From assembly GCA_902799045.1 (NCBI GenBank), contig CADBZH010000002.1, positions 234,966 through 298,965 of the forward strand: 64,000 bases of DNA, in the 5' to 3' direction. The translations under genes and the position numbers were made by a program. The DNA comes from an uncultured Eubacteriales bacterium (lineage in GTDB: Bacteria; Bacillota; Clostridia; Christensenellales; Aristaeellaceae). Positions within the stretch are counted from its first letter, which is position 1; the number at the start of each line of letters is the position of its first letter. The notes below the pieces were generated by a model, which saw only the letters and a program-made list of their open reading frames with translations, was not told the DNA's origin and searched no databases. This document shows, piece after piece, positions 30,301 to 37,418 of this stretch.

Positions 30301-32748
30301 CTATCGCGCGACCAGGGCGTCGATCTCCCCGAGCAGCGCCTCCGCGTCGCCCAGCGGCTTGACATAGCCCTCCAGCATCCTGCCCTTGGCGGTGAGGCCC
30401 CGGGAGCGCGGGTTGATGTAGATGCGACACTTGCAGCGGGCGTTGCGGGCTTCCTGGATCAGGTTCAGCGCCGCCGAGTTTCCGTCGAAGGCAATCAGCG
30501 CCGAGGGGCGGCGCTTGAAGATCTCATAGGCGAAGCTCTTGTAGAGGCCGCCGGACGTGCCTTCTATGGAGACCAGGATGCCCAGGCCGCCCTCGCGCAG
30601 CTTCGCGATCTGCTGGGGCGTCAGCCGATTCGGCACGATGGCGAACAGGTCAAAGCGTCCCGCTGACTGCTTCACCAGATAGCCCTCCTGGGCCGTCAGC
30701 GCGTGTCCGACCACAAAGCAGACCTTTTCCGGGTCTGCTTTTTCAAGCAGCGCGTCGATGAAATCGCGGTCCTCGCCCCGAAGCGGGGTGCGCCGGCGGC
30801 TGGAATTGAAGCTGCCGCCCGCCACGATGATGGGAAAACGCCCGTCGGGAAGTGCCCTCAGCTGGTCGCGCAGCATCTCCTCCGCGGCCACCTTTCCCCC
30901 ACCGCGCCACAGGTCCGCCGGGGCCTTGTTCGCGGCCTCCAAACACCCCCTGAAGAACTGCTCCACGTCGCCGGTGCAGGCCTCCCGGAAGGCCGCGAGG
31001 CGCGCCTCGAACACGCTGCGGCTCCGCTCCAGGATCGCGTCCTCGCATTCCCGCATGCGGCGCAGCTCCTCCGGCTTCAGGCCCAGCAGCTTCTCAAGGC
31101 TCAGCTCCTCGTCGATGGAGTTCGTGCCGTAGAGCGCACCGCCGTCGGTGCCCTGGACGCAGGCCACGCCCGCCTTCAGGTAGCGCTTGAGCGGGTGGCG
31201 CTCCAGCCGGGAGAGGTTGTTCAGGCGCACGTTGGACGTGATCTGGAATTCCAACGTCACGCCCAACCGGCGCATCTCCGACAAGAGCTGCTTTCCCTTT
31301 TCGCTGCGCAAATCGCAGGTGTAGAGCCCGTGCCCGAGGCGGAGCGCCGGCATCGCCTGTCCGGGCGAAAGGGATTCGGCGACGCAGCGGATGCTGTTGG
31401 CCACGTTGTCGCGCAGGCTGTCGTTCTCCCCCGCGTGGATGCGGATGACGAAGCCCGGGTGCTCCCCCGCCAGCTTCACCAGCTCGCGGATGACGCTGCG
31501 CAGCTCCAGGATGTCGTTGATCTCCTCGCCGATGATGTCGCTGCCCGCCACGTAGGGGTCGGCGGCGATAGCCCGCAGGCAGCGCAGGTTTTCCGCCAGG
31601 TAGTCGTTGGGAGTGACCCTGTCCTTGACGATCGTCAGCGGCACCCGGCGAATGCCCGCCAGGAAGCGCAGCAGCACGCCGGTCTCCCGCGTGACGGCGG
31701 GCATGATCGCGTGGATCTGGCGCAGCCGGTCCGGGAATTCCGCGCGGTTCAGCAGGCTCGTATCGGAGATCTCGGCGTATTCTATGCCGTGCTTCTGGTA
31801 TTCCCGGGCAATCCACAGCAGCAGGTCCTGATAGAGCGTGTTGCCTCGATAGCGGTCGTCCTCGCGGTCGCGGCGCATGCGCTGGGCGTAGGCGCGCACC
31901 TCCCGATCCGGGATGTGCTCCACGTTCACGTCCACGTACGGGTCGTCCGCAGGGACGCCCTTGGTGAACACATAGCGATACAGATACACCTTTTCAAGAT
32001 TTGCGAACACCGCCTGGCCATCCTTTGGGATCGTCAGCGAATTGCGGATTTTTTCGATGTTCCCGGCGGCGTGCTCGGGATTGCCGAGGATCAGGTCGGC
32101 AAAGTTGATGAAGGTGAAGTCGTCGATGCGGCGCTCGCGATGGCGGCCCGTCAGCGGGATATCGCCCAGGTTGGCCTCGGCGACCTTCCGGGCCGCCTCC
32201 AGCCGCGCGATCTGCTCCAGCGTGCAGGTCAGCTCCAGCTTCTTGACGTAGTAATAGGGATAGCGGATCTGGCGCGTGATGCCCAGGGCGATCAACGCAT
32301 CCGGCGGCAGATTGCCGTTCATGTGGGTGTGCAGGTCCGTGCGGAACTTGCAGTCGCTGCGGATATAGGTCTTGACGATGGTCTTTTCGATGCCCAGGCG
32401 GTAATCCTTGGTCTGGCTCATCAGCGTCTTGGAGATGGCCGGCACGGAGGCCTTCAGCTCCACCCGCCCGTCCGGGAAGATGTTGGCCACCTTGGTATCC
32501 GCCAGGCGCAGGATGTAGACGCGCCGGTTGTCCCCGTCGAAATAGCAGGGAACCTCGCCGCGAATCACCTTCAGGCCATGTTCGTCCAGCGACGTCTCCA
32601 GGCTGCAGAGGCGCGCCAGATTGGTGATCAGGTTGCCGGAATGGTGATTGGGCGTGCGGATGACATGATAGAGACGCGCCCCGTCCAGGTAGAGATCGAC
32701 GACGATATCCTTTTCTCGGTCCAGGTAGAACTGCTGGAAAAAGAGCAT
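30301..32748 (-). CDS. adenosine-deaminase-like enzyme with an extra C-terminal Rossmann-like domain
   Basis: An 815-residue protein, more than twice the size of a housekeeping adenosine deaminase. After a novel N-terminal region (1-135) an amidohydrolase barrel carries every expected catalytic residue: H140 and H142 in TDLHTHMNG, H438 and E441 in RIHAGEND, H473 in LGHG, the S505/N506 pair and D535 in GTDGG. The C-terminal part (about 635-815) reads like a nucleotide-binding Rossmann or SLOG/LOG-type fold (FPIIVAGGSFNSS, VCFVVGHALTAQEGY, VSIEGTSGG, LIAFDGNSAAL). No signal peptide. AAAGGAGG precedes the start. It follows a hybrid histidine kinase by 44 bases in the same direction. Large divergent deaminases are known in phage-defence systems (RdrB of RADAR), but no RdrA-like AAA+ gene is here. 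The substrate is unknown. Confidence 0.8.
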   Translation of the reverse strand: MLFFQQFYLDREKDIVVDLYLDGARLYHVIRTPNHHSGNLITNLARLCSLETSLDEHGLKVIRGEVPCYFDGDNRRVYILRLADTKVANIFPDGRVELKASVPAISKTLMSQTKDYRLGIEKTIVKTYIRSDCKFRTDLHTHMNGNLPPDALIALGITRQIRYPYYYVKKLELTCTLEQIARLEAARKVAEANLGDIPLTGRHRERRIDDFTFINFADLILGNPEHAAGNIEKIRNSLTIPKDGQAVFANLEKVYLYRYVFTKGVPADDPYVDVNVEHIPDREVRAYAQRMRRDREDDRYRGNTLYQDLLLWIAREYQKHGIEYAEISDTSLLNRAEFPDRLRQIHAIMPAVTRETGVLLRFLAGIRRVPLTIVKDRVTPNDYLAENLRCLRAIAADPYVAGSDIIGEEINDILELRSVIRELVKLAGEHPGFVIRIHAGENDSLRDNVANSIRCVAESLSPGQAMPALRLGHGLYTCDLRSEKGKQLLSEMRRLGVTLEFQITSNVRLNNLSRLERHPLKRYLKAGVACVQGTDGGALYGTNSIDEELSLEKLLGLKPEELRRMRECEDAILERSRSVFEARLAAFREACTGDVEQFFRGCLEAANKAPADLWRGGGKVAAEEMLRDQLRALPDGRFPIIVAGGSFNSSRRRTPLRGEDRDFIDALLEKADPEKVCFVVGHALTAQEGYLVKQSAGRFDLFAIVPNRLTPQQIAKLREGGLGILVSIEGTSGGLYKSFAYEIFKRRPSALIAFDGNSAALNLIQEARNARCKCRIYINPRSRGLTAKGRMLEGYVKPLGDAEALLGEIDALVAR

Positions 32749-32792
32749 ATCGCGCCTCCTTTCGGCGATTGTTTAATGCGTCACGACCCGCG

Positions 32793-35627
32793 TCACCAGA
32801 TCAGCGCCTCGAGGGTCTCATAGAGGTGATCCGGCTCCACGGGCTTGGACAGGTGCGCCGTCATGCCGGCCTGCAGCGAAAGCTGCACGTCCTCGTCGAA
32901 GGCGTTGGCCGTCAGCGCGATGATCGGCACCCGCCGCGCGTCCCGCCTGGGCAGGGCGCGTATGGCCGCGGTAGCCTCCAGGCCGTCCATCACCGGCATG
33001 CGCACGTCCATCAGCACGGCGTCGTAATAGCCCTCGGTGCTGCGCTCGAACATCTCCAGCGCGACGCGGCCGTTTTCCGCGTGCTCCACCTGCATCTCCC
33101 TCATGCTGAGGATCTGCTTCATGATCTCGGCGTTGATCAGCACGTCCTCGGCCATCAGCACGCGCTTCCCCGCCAGCTCGGCCCGCCGGCCGTCCATGCG
33201 CGTATTCGAGCTCTTGCGCTTCACCACCGATTCGTACTCGCTGAGCACCGCCGAGGCGAAAAGCGGCTTGGCCATGAAGCCGTCCACGCCTGCCGCCAGG
33301 GCGGCGTCCTGTATGTCGTCCCAGTTGTAGGCTGTGAGCAGTATGATGGTCGTCTCGTGGTTGAAGTTCGCGCGGATCTCCCGGGCCACGGCCACGCCGT
33401 CCTGACTGGGCATCTTCCAATCCAGCAGCACCAGGTGATACGGCTCGTGCTTGGCGTGATGCAGCTCGATCAACTTCAGCGCCTCGCTTCCGCTCATGCA
33501 GGTCTGGGCGGCGATGCCGATCTCCTCCAGCACGATCCGGGCGTGTTCGCAGGCGATGGGATCGTCGTCCACCACCAGCACGCGCAGCTGGCTGGGCTTC
33601 AGCTGGCTGCTGACGACGGCGCGGTTGCCGCCGTCGCGCAGCGTGACCGTCACGGTGAAGGTGGAGCCGACGCCCTTTTCGGAGGTGACCTGAATGGTGC
33701 CGTTCATCATCTCCACGATGCTCTTGGTGATCGCCATGCCCAGGCCCGTGCTGCCGAACTTGTTGTTGCTGCTGCTGTTTTCCTGGGTGAAGGCGTCGAA
33801 GATCCTGGAGATGAAGGTCTTTTCCATGCCGATGCCGGTGTCCGCGATGGTGAAGCGCAGCGTGGCGTTGCTCTCATACTTCGCGATCTGCTCCACCGTG
33901 AAGGTGACGGCGCCGGGCGCGTCGGTGAACTTGATGGCGTTGGAGAGGATGTTGATGATGACCTGCTTGAGCTTCATGTCGTCGCCGATATAGTTGTCGG
34001 CCACCGCGCCGATGACGCGGCATTCAAAGCTCAGCCCCTTGTCGTCGCACTGGGCCTGGACCAGCGTGTTGATCTGCTCCAGCATGGCCCGGAAGGAGAA
34101 CTCCTCCTTGTGCAGCGTCAGCCGGCCGGACTCAATGCGGCTCATGTCGAGGATATCGTTGATGAGGCTCAGAAGGTGCCGCGCGCTGTCGCCGATCTTC
34201 TCCAGGTATTCCCGGGTCTGGGGCATCAGGTCCGCCGATTGCAGGGCGATGCTGTCCAGGCCGATGATGGCGTTCATGGGCGTTCGGATCTCGTGGCTCA
34301 TGTTGCTCAGGAAGCTGGTCTTGGCGGCGTTGGCCTGTTCCGCGGCCTGCAGGGCGTCCGCAAGCGCGGTGTTGCGCTCGCGCTCCTTGCGCAGCACGTC
34401 GGTGACGTCGCTCTTGAGCAGCAGGTAGAAGCGGGCCTCCCGGTCCACCTGGCAATAGGTGAAGCGCTTGAAGAACAGCTCTCCCCCGTCCTCGCAGGTC
34501 ACGTCCACGGTGTAGGTGTCCTTGTCCTCCAGCTCGCGCTCCACCGTCTCGGCCGAGAGCGCCAGGCGGAGCTGCTCCGGATCGTGCAGCGCTTCCGAGG
34601 CCGCCGGAAGCACCTGGTTCTGGATGTACTCGGAATAGACGCCGTCGCGCTGCTTCGGGAAGATGTTGCCGCGCTTGATGTTGGAGGCGTCGCCGATGAC
34701 GACGCCATAGTGGTCGCCCACGATGTAGGACACCATGTCGTACTGCTGGGCCAGCACCCGCTGGTTCAGCACCTCGGTGACCTTTTCCGTGTTGTACTCC
34801 GTCTCCACGCCGAAGGCGAACACATCGCCCGAGACCGGGTCGATGGCCGCCGAGCCGGAGAACTTCACAAAGCACTGGCGTCCGGACGCCCTGCGGCAAT
34901 AGCCCACGAACACCGCCGGCCCCTGGCCCTTGTAATAGCGTTCCACCAGGCGATCCAGCGCGAAGATCTCGTCATAGCGCTTCCGGTCGCCGGGCACCAG
35001 GAAGCTCTCGGAGCGCACCCGGGCGCTTTCGGCGATGGAGCCGCCAGGATAGTCGGTGTCATAGAGGTCGCGGCCGCGCGCCTCCTCGATGATGCCAGTG
35101 GTGATGTTCGTGCGGAACACGGTCAGGCTGCCATCCGCCAGCGCGTTGAACTGCTCCCGCATGCCCTCGTACACCTTCTCGCGCCGCCTGATCTCCTCCA
35201 GCGCGTAGTGCTGTTCGGTGATGTCGCCGATGAACACATAGAACACGTCGCCATAGCCGGGCAGGCGGGCCAGATGGCCGTAGTCGTCCACCCAGCGAAC
35301 GCTGCCATCGCGGCGGATGATACGATATTCCACGTAGTCCAGATTGTTGCTGTCAGGGGATTCGATCTGGCTCTCGATGGAGGCCTGCACCCGGTCGTAA
35401 TCCTCCGGATGCACCAGGCCCCGGAACCTGAAGCCGGTGAGCTCGCGGAACTCCGCCTCGTCCTTGCAGCCGAACAGCCGGTAACAGATGCTGTTGGCGA
35501 AGATCAGCTCCTGCTCCTCGTCGTCGCGGTATACGAAGAACCCGCCGGGGACCTGCTCAGCCATCCACCGGATGGCGGGCATGATCTGCCCTTCGTCCAT
35601 TTGGAAGCGTTTGAGGAAGTCATTCAT
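32793..35627 (-). CDS. soluble hybrid histidine kinase with two receiver domains
   Basis: A 944-residue sensor kinase with no membrane span. Domains in order: PAS with PAC (about 20-145, ending VFIGDITEQHYALEE), a second PAS-like region (about 155-285), a third (about 290-415), a coiled linker, HisKA with the phospho-acceptor H445 in SNMSHEIRTPMNAI, HATPase_c (about 545-680, with GSTGLGMAI), receiver 1 (from LRVLVVDDDP, phospho-acceptor in LVLLDWKMP) and receiver 2 (from GKRVLMAEDV, acceptor in AVLMDVRMP). No DNA-binding output domain is attached, so output goes through protein partners. The adenosine-deaminase-like gene directly downstream is the obvious candidate. Family architecture is common in gut Clostridia; the signal is unknown. 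Confidence 0.92.
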   Translation of the reverse strand: MNDFLKRFQMDEGQIMPAIRWMAEQVPGGFFVYRDDEEQELIFANSICYRLFGCKDEAEFRELTGFRFRGLVHPEDYDRVQASIESQIESPDSNNLDYVEYRIIRRDGSVRWVDDYGHLARLPGYGDVFYVFIGDITEQHYALEEIRRREKVYEGMREQFNALADGSLTVFRTNITTGIIEEARGRDLYDTDYPGGSIAESARVRSESFLVPGDRKRYDEIFALDRLVERYYKGQGPAVFVGYCRRASGRQCFVKFSGSAAIDPVSGDVFAFGVETEYNTEKVTEVLNQRVLAQQYDMVSYIVGDHYGVVIGDASNIKRGNIFPKQRDGVYSEYIQNQVLPAASEALHDPEQLRLALSAETVERELEDKDTYTVDVTCEDGGELFFKRFTYCQVDREARFYLLLKSDVTDVLRKERERNTALADALQAAEQANAAKTSFLSNMSHEIRTPMNAIIGLDSIALQSADLMPQTREYLEKIGDSARHLLSLINDILDMSRIESGRLTLHKEEFSFRAMLEQINTLVQAQCDDKGLSFECRVIGAVADNYIGDDMKLKQVIINILSNAIKFTDAPGAVTFTVEQIAKYESNATLRFTIADTGIGMEKTFISRIFDAFTQENSSSNNKFGSTGLGMAITKSIVEMMNGTIQVTSEKGVGSTFTVTVTLRDGGNRAVVSSQLKPSQLRVLVVDDDPIACEHARIVLEEIGIAAQTCMSGSEALKLIELHHAKHEPYHLVLLDWKMPSQDGVAVAREIRANFNHETTIILLTAYNWDDIQDAALAAGVDGFMAKPLFASAVLSEYESVVKRKSSNTRMDGRRAELAGKRVLMAEDVLINAEIMKQILSMREMQVEHAENGRVALEMFERSTEGYYDAVLMDVRMPVMDGLEATAAIRALPRRDARRVPIIALTANAFDEDVQLSLQAGMTAHLSKPVEPDHLYETLEALIW

Positions 35628-35996
35628 CAGGGCTCCGTCCTTTCATCGGCCCGCCTTCAGGGCGGTTTTGTTCTCGTACACGGCGGTCAAAAAGCAGTTT
35701 ATACTGAATTCCTTTCAAAACATGTACAAACGCGGAGTTGTTTTCTTGTTCTGGCAAAACTGATCGGAGAGAGGGGATGCAGCGCATCGTTGACTTAAGG
35801 ATTGGATGGAATTCACCGTTAACCCGATCGCCCACCCGCGCGCCATCTTACGCGCGGCAAGCGCCCGTTGCGCCACGGGCAAGGATACGGAAGCAGTCGC
35901 TTCATTTTACCATAACTTCATGCGCATTTGCAACCCATCAATAAGAAACAAATGAAATAAGGGCAAGCGCCGCCCGGCCCTGGCTGAACAAGAAAA
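35628..35996. other. intergenic stretch without a recognised gene
   Basis: About 370 bases upstream of the hybrid kinase. It holds a small GCCCGT/ACGGGC hairpin (35864-35881), a CGCGCG pair and short AT-rich tracts. I see no convincing promoter, coding region or structured RNA, although the kinase promoter must lie here; a TATAAA-like box occurs near 35700 without a matching -35. Confidence 0.4.
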
Positions 35997-36028: not shown

Positions 36029-36104
36029 TGGTACACCATCAGGGGCTCGAACCCTGGACACCCTGATTAAGAGTCAGGTGCTCTACCAACTGAGCTAATG
36101 GTGC
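36029..36104 (-). tRNA. tRNA-Lys (CTT)
   Basis: Full 76-base cloverleaf with encoded CCA. The anticodon stem CCTGA/TCAGG encloses the loop CTCTTAA, giving anticodon CTT; the T-arm carries GGTTCGAGC. First acceptor pair is a G-U. Last gene of a five-tRNA cluster. Confidence 0.95.
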
Positions 36105-36107
36105 CTG

Positions 36108-36183
36108 TGGAGCGGTAGACGAGACTCGGACTCGCGACCTCCACCTTGGCAAGGTGGCGCTCTACCAACTGAGCTACTACCGC
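36108..36183 (-). tRNA. tRNA-Gly (GCC), copy 2
   Basis: 76 bases including CCA. Anticodon stem CCACC/GGTGG around TTGCCAA gives GCC. It appears identical to the copy at 36293-36368. Confidence 0.95.
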
Positions 36184-36201
36184 ACGTTAGCGAGGATTGA
36201 A

Positions 36202-36275
36202 TGGAGCGGGTGATGGGAATCGAACCCACGTAGCCAGCTTGGAAGGCTGGAACTCTACCATTGAGTTACACCCGC
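36202..36275 (-). tRNA. tRNA-Gly (TCC)
   Basis: 74 bases including CCA. Anticodon stem CCAGC/GCTGG around CTTCCAA gives TCC. Confidence 0.95.
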
Positions 36276-36292
36276 ATGCTTCAATGGAAAGT

Positions 36293-36368
36293 TGGAGCGG
36301 TAGACGAGACTCGGACTCGCGACCTCCACCTTGGCAAGGTGGCGCTCTACCAACTGAGCTACTACCGC
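36293..36368 (-). tRNA. tRNA-Gly (GCC), copy 1
   Basis: 76 bases including CCA, with anticodon GCC in TTGCCAA; apparently identical to the gene at 36108-36183, with the tRNA-Gly(TCC) gene between them. Confidence 0.95.
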
Positions 36369-36381
36369 ATGTCGGTTCAAA

Positions 36382-36466
36382 TGGTGCGGGCGAAGGGACT
36401 TGAACCCATACGCCGTTTGGCACCAGAACCTAAATCTGGCGCGTCTGCCAATTCCGCCACGCCCGC
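36382..36466 (-). tRNA. tRNA-Leu (TAG)
   Basis: 85-base type-II tRNA with encoded CCA and a long variable arm. Anticodon stem CCAGA/TCTGG around TTTAGGT gives TAG. First gene of the cluster. Confidence 0.94.
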
Positions 36467-37285: not shown

Positions 37286-37309
37286 ACCAGTGACAACAAA
37301 AACAGCCTT

Positions 37310-37418
37310 ATCAAGAGCGGCGGAGGGACAGGCCCGATGATGCCCGGCAACCGGTTCAAGCGAACAAGGTGCCAATTCCTGCGGCGGGATCCCCGCCGAA
37401 AGATGAGGCGAGCTTGAT
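37310..37418 (+). promoter_or_regulatory. SAM-I (S-box) riboswitch
   Basis: The leader matches the S-box consensus: closing helix ATCAAG/CTTGAT (37310-37315 with 37413-37418), AGAGCGGCGGAGGGACAGGC, CCCGATGATGCCCGGCAACC, AAGGTGCCAATTCC, a GC-rich helix, and GAAAGATGAGG. It binds S-adenosylmethionine. The segment GGCGAG (37406-37411) can pair with CTCGCC (37428-37433), which supplies the alternative antiterminator. It controls metK, the gene making the ligand, by feedback at transcription level. Confidence 0.96.

Follow-up and report, generated by a model that had tools for sequence, protein, structure and literature searches.

A three-domain adenosine deaminase-like protein of gut and rumen Clostridia with two altered substrate-binding positions and a plausible SLOG domain at its C-terminus

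The reverse strand of a 64,000-nucleotide stretch of DNA from an uncultured Eubacteriales bacterium (here called the window) encodes, at 30301..32748, an 815-residue protein of the adenosine deaminase (ADA) superfamily in which the deaminase barrel lies between an N-terminal and a C-terminal domain, an architecture shown to be conserved as one unit. The protein is real and strongly constrained, with its six catalytic residues and both extensions kept in all 60 aligned sequences, and we tentatively favour, at somewhat less than even confidence, reading it as a stand-alone accessory nucleotide deaminase of Clostridia that would be gated by its SLOG-like C-terminal domain.

The open reading frame has 815 codons for amino acids, as a sequence-only reading of this DNA had stated, and a Shine–Dalgarno-like stretch read from the sequence, AAAGGAGG (32755..32762, reverse strand), lies 6 nt 5' of the start codon. 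Pfam recognises the barrel as A_deaminase (PF00962; 53.5 bits against a gathering score of 27), and all 60 members of alignment A1, comprising the window protein and 59 of the best 80 of 261 relatives, match the same family at E<=1, while no Pfam family exceeds its cut-off in either flanking region. The N-terminal domain, residues 1-135 (32344..32748, reverse strand), is represented by an alignment of 40 rows (A2) with a mean column identity of 78%, and its consensus reaches a best E of only 0.27 against Pfam. The barrel itself occupies approximately residues 136-580 (31009..32343, reverse strand) and carries roughly 100 extra residues after the HxH strand and before residue 313, which is position 77 of the Pfam profile. 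Residues 620-815 (30304..30891, reverse strand) form the SLOG-like C-terminal domain, which carries the motifs GGSFN, GHxLTxxE, GLYKSFAYE and FDGNSA (alignment A3). Extra regions of about 135 residues before the barrel and about 180 after it had been proposed from the sequence alone; the first figure holds, whereas the tail is nearer to 195 residues. Since both extensions are present in 60/60 aligned relatives they are not there by chance, and the picture of a large and divergent member of the ADA superfamily, conserved in its N- and C-terminal domains too, is supported. The protein is the sole A_deaminase match of its genome.

Residues H140, H142, H438, E441, H473 and D535 are invariant in 60/60 aligned relatives, so that the zinc ligands and the catalytic Glu of the ‘full deaminase active site’ claimed earlier are indeed present, but the site is not complete: Gly536 replaces the second Asp of the canonical ADA TDD pair (mouse Asp296) in 60/60, and the position of Asp19 is Asn144 in 59/60 relatives and Ser in one. 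Both positions were placed by alignment with Streptomyces Add, which reads TDD and itself has Glu at the Asp19 position. The window protein thus shares its superfamily, zinc ligands and catalytic Glu with canonical Add and differs from it in the Gly, the Asn and its length (815 versus ~340 residues); against the NCBIfam equivalog for Add, TIGR01430, it scores 41 bits and does not reach the cut-off of 216.55. As described in PMC12669630, the ATP-specific CARF–ADA protein TaqCad1 has Gly for Asp19 and Asn for Asp296, and converts ATP, not AMP or ADP, with no activity on adenosine. Because this enzyme is altered at the same two positions, ordinary adenosine is by analogy an unlikely substrate of the 815-residue deaminase, and the parallel suggests a nucleotide instead, although it is not proof, because the substituting residues differ (Asn and Gly here; Gly and Asn in Cad1). 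Loss of the second Asp might alternatively mean that the barrel is catalytically dead and serves as a regulatory nucleotide-binding scaffold, as changing this residue to Asn severely impairs the mouse enzyme (quoted in PMC12669630). The invariance of every zinc ligand and of the catalytic Glu speaks against such a scaffold, which we regard as improbable.

Two families of defence deaminase invite comparison. Like Cad1 (CAAD; PMC12669630), the window protein joins its ADA barrel to another domain and has substitutions at the Asp19 and Asp296 positions; unlike Cad1, it carries other residues there, has no match by sequence to the CARF models of PADLOC or Pfam at E<=1, and bears its extra domain at the C-terminus with another at the N-terminus. 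The Cad1 structure 9C67 (PMC11645235) is detected weakly by the family profiles (E 1.3 and 1.4). No CRISPR-like array was found in 81 stretches, 1.38 Mb in all, by a crude test for exact 24-mers only. RdrB of the RADAR system, which converts ATP to ITP and for which 8FNV and 8FNW are E. coli structures, is similarly an oversized ADA with an N-terminal extension and a core insertion (PMC9994260), but it keeps the DD pair, and the 815-residue deaminase has no adjacent RdrA AAA+ ATPase. The RdrB structures were absent from the PDB matches of the window protein, no PADLOC family matches it at E<=1, and Pfam finds no SIR2 domain in it. A direct comparison is offered by another genome of the genus, G027, whose 984-residue deaminase (L216 6716-9670, reverse strand) matches 8FNV/8FNW at ~1e-17 and keeps TDD; the window protein gives no alignment with it (best BLASTP E 0.72). 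A divergent member of RdrB or Cad1, for which the common superfamily, the large size, the insertions and the weak detection of 9C67 could be cited, is therefore extremely unlikely in view of the missing PADLOC match, the DD pair and E value of the RdrB-like protein, the absence of CRISPR-like arrays from the 81 stretches in that crude test, and extensions unlike those of Cad1 by sequence; membership of either family was rejected, and the earlier view that this is not RADAR stands.

Two observations concern other deaminases of these bacteria. In G027, a 1087-residue protein with a P-loop-like motif, seen by eye, adjoins the RdrB-like deaminase (L216 9701-12964, reverse strand), and the pair is probably a RADAR system, a reading resting on the deaminase because this neighbour has no PDB match at E<=0.01. 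Genome G007 encodes a 572-residue ADA-superfamily protein (L217 101-1819, reverse strand) with CSDD and a signal-peptide-like start, possibly a secreted deaminase.

The nature of the tail is best approached through a deeper branch of the family. A 783-residue protein of genome G726 (L116), whose barrel is 33% identical to that of the window protein, matches the tail profile at E 7e-5, and 5 carriers, G726 included, were found among 197 genomes of its taxonomic family; the proteins of G726, G1181, G1241 and G1169 are similar (branch B) and that of G1198 is more divergent (branch C). All five read TDG, i.e. Gly at the Asp296 position, and four of the five are in the alignment with Streptomyces Add. 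Comparison by hhalign of window-type and branch B/C tails gave E 1.5e-7 over 170 columns, against 2.1e-3 for the strongest of 146 controls, all unrelated neighbour proteins, and the N-terminal domains gave E 3.2e-4 over 47 columns, with a best control of 0.018 from the same set. Judged by these profiles the tails of the two groups are homologous, and with homologous N-terminal domains as well, the three-domain plan is therefore older than the window-type family. The tail of G726 alone matches LSDAT_prok (PF18171), Pfam's ‘SLOG in TRPM, prokaryote’, at E 8.8e-4 and 19 bits, where the gathering score is 25.4; in the branch B/C set this family is matched at E<=1, below the Pfam cut-off, by three proteins out of five (best 0.0026), and LSDAT_euk by two (0.036). 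None of the 60 window-type proteins matches LSDAT_prok at E<=1; the SLOG-like tail of the sequence-only reading is weakly and indirectly supported, by sub-threshold matches in homologous tails of the deeper branch. Profile comparison with three LOG-like proteins (0.25 and 0.066) was worse than the best controls, and neither the tail profile nor the N-terminal one found a meaningful match in the PDB. Toprim_2 weakly matches the tail in 10/60 members (E 0.0086 at best and 0.11 for the consensus, under the cut-off); as the deeper branch favours SLOG, that reading was set aside. A SLOG domain is thus a plausible, if unproven, assignment for the tail.

A scan of 84,980 species' genomes returned 261 stretches with a relative at E<=1e-3; the analysis used the best 80, and the remaining 181 may include ordinary deaminases. 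The best 80 are all from Clostridia, mostly with titles that indicate rumen or gut metagenomes, and one named strain is among them, Lachnospiraceae FE2018 (L075). The distribution of the family is patchy, scattered among gut and rumen Clostridia, with carriers in 13/60 relatives, 11/28 genomes of the genus and, at E<=1e-30, 2/398 of the phylum. The tail profile was found in 12/391 genomes of the class, always in an open frame of 783-869 residues, and the N-terminal profile in 7/291, always in one of 823-869 residues; therefore neither domain occurs outside the fusion in these samples. An apparent 1361-residue fusion in L045 was dropped, as it looked like high-GC frame read-through. One assembly, JAFWIM01, holds two deaminase copies (L067 and L068), each 57% identical to the window protein and with similar neighbours.

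Deaminase distances follow those of Tsf among genomes of the genus (Spearman 0.71, Mantel p 0.001; 10 genomes, 45 pairs), hence descent within the genus is mainly vertical and horizontal spread there is unsupported. The chromosomal place of the gene nevertheless varies: the rpsB–tsf stretches of nine relatives include five that reach rlmD, and the deaminase follows rlmD in 0/5, unlike in the window. No relative was found in phages or viral contigs, the plasmid search gave a single match, to an ordinary Streptomyces add gene, and no plasmid relative of the deeper-branch protein was found, so cargo of a mobile element or phage was rejected.

The main rival to a gated deaminase is a metabolic, possibly bifunctional, salvage enzyme, whose barrel would deaminate AMP or N6-modified AMP while a LOG-like tail splits or binds the product, with dietary purines of the gut as the supply. 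The rumen and gut hosts that predominate among the best 80 of 261 relatives, together with the mainly vertical inheritance, are consistent with this, and so is the sequence His-x-His-Met-Asn, whose Asn resembles that of N6-methyl-AMP deaminases; moreover, 15/28 genomes of the genus have no A_deaminase match at all, so the 815-residue type could supply the activity. It fits less well that only 11/28 genomes of the genus carry the gene, at changing places, and that no purine-salvage neighbour recurs among the first 25 of 100 and 98 neighbour families listed; nor does the tail alignment have an obvious PGGxGTxxE motif, the motif of LOG enzymes. On balance we consider a salvage role rather unlikely.

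In the window the deaminase adjoins a hybrid kinase and a methyltransferase-like gene, read as rlmD, but among relatives no Pfam family recurs in more than 3/74 upstream or 3/72 downstream neighbours (first 25 of 100 and 98 families listed), individual assignments being rough because genes were called by a simple codon-usage caller. PADLOC families, mostly generic domains, reach at most 1/74 upstream and 3/72 downstream, so there is no defence island, and no TIR (ThsB) partner appears among the first 25 of the 100 and 98 families listed. The possibility had been raised that homologues would prove to be housekeeping genes without conserved neighbours: the neighbours are indeed not conserved, but carriage by 11/28 genomes of the genus and the altered active site do not suit a housekeeping gene.

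The neighbouring kinase (32793..35627, reverse strand; 944 residues) is, as was read from the sequence, a soluble hybrid histidine kinase on the same strand with two receivers and no output domain. Pfam finds PAS_3, HisKA, HATPase_c and the two receivers; the residues H445, D736 and D874 are in place, and with a maximum 19-residue hydropathy of 1.35 the protein has no membrane-like stretch. It lies 44 bp upstream of the deaminase, and because the ribosome-binding site is strong and no terminator-like site is listed between them, the two genes are probably co-transcribed in the window. This arrangement speaks for the phospho-relay proposed from the sequence alone, in which the deaminase would be phosphorylated by the kinase or be under its direct control in some other way. 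The window is colinear with the closest genome, G014, at 80% over 30340-34367, which takes in the deaminase, the gap and the kinase core but not the sensor half, so the linkage is real but local, and kinases are also found close to the deaminase in L007 (convergent, with one gene between, and related to the window kinase at 72%) and L041 (a different kinase, divergently adjoining). Across the family, however, a same-strand kinase of this cluster directly upstream was found in only 2/75 loci, namely the window and L004, which appears to be the G014 locus, where the 75 are the window plus those 74 of the best 80 of 261 relatives with a readable upstream gene; HisKA likewise occurs in 2/74 upstream neighbours. 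When other carriers of the genus are compared with the window, the deaminase alone aligns. Of 28 genomes in the genus, 2 have kinase and deaminase, 4 the kinase alone and 9 the deaminase alone (Fisher p = 1), in which count G014 scores as kinase-less because the kinase was counted by its sensor half; in G001 and G024, which have the kinase without the deaminase, the kinase stretches hold no deaminase match. The kinase is therefore a member of the locus here and in G014 and not family-wide, the general kinase–deaminase arrangement proposed earlier does not hold, and kinase linkage was rejected as a feature of the family. As Pfam also detects neither a receiver nor an HPt domain within the deaminase, direct control by phospho-relay is very unlikely.

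Several features around this pair were recorded. In L041 (98-10125), receiver- and kinase-related genes flank the deaminase on both sides. Against L149 of G014, the window kinase shares its core at 80% but not its sensor half, as if recombination had exchanged the sensor. A cluster of five tRNA genes (Lys, Gly, Gly, Gly, Leu; window 36029-36466) lies just upstream of the kinase and rlmD lies at the opposite end, so that the pair is flanked by tRNAs and by housekeeping genes. A segment upstream of the kinase (window 35698-35794) has an 88% copy beside pyrH in G014 (L188 5587-5683) and recurs over 63 bases in L018, and is possibly a small repeated element. A SAM riboswitch (RF00162, 98.3 bits; window 37305-37409) precedes metK.

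Returning to the gated nucleotide deaminase, the barrel would act on an adenine nucleotide with a 5' phosphate, whether ATP, ADP, AMP or a signal derived from a nucleotide, and not on adenosine, the C-terminal domain may bind a nucleotide-like ligand and gate the barrel, and the N-terminal domain may help assembly or gating. The model for such gating is Thoeris ThsA, whose SIR2 domain is activated when its C-terminal SLOG domain detects a cyclic ADP-ribose isomer (PMC12948488 and PMC11204291); the analogy is one of function alone, a nucleotide-acting enzyme joined to a C-terminal SLOG sensor, as the enzyme domain here is ADA and not SIR2. The kinase would be a local operon partner in two genomes, at most tuning expression or activity there. 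A setting of conflict or stress seems likely, with the adenine nucleotide pool drained or changed on a signal. In favour of this reading we count the intact zinc site and Glu with both substrate-contacting Asp replaced, the homologous tails, the LSDAT_prok matches, the fusion-only domains and the lack of a constant neighbour. Against it we count the 0/60 window-type LSDAT_prok matches, the weak Toprim_2 matches, the LOG comparison that did not exceed controls, the failure to find a ligand synthase or defence neighbour or any phage, viral-contig or close plasmid relative, and the fact that the gene follows the species within the genus, unlike fast-moving defence genes.

A bolder form of the proposal, which we hold to be unlikely, is that the family forms a third class of nucleotide deaminase effectors under the control of a signal, in which one polypeptide with a ThsA-like sensor would deaminate ATP or a related nucleotide as a self-contained growth-arrest or anti-phage device needing no CRISPR or AAA+ partner. 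In the open-licence literature, to which our search extended, no description of an ADA–SLOG fusion was found. Immunity by ATP deamination has emerged twice in settings that are unrelated, RADAR and Cad1, and a version that stands alone and has its own sensor-like tail would, if true, be a further recruitment of the ADA barrel; one-gene systems are also easy to test. Even if its role is metabolic, this is an ADA-superfamily enzyme without either canonical substrate-binding Asp, for which the database label ‘adenosine deaminase’ would mislead and whose substrate is directly testable.
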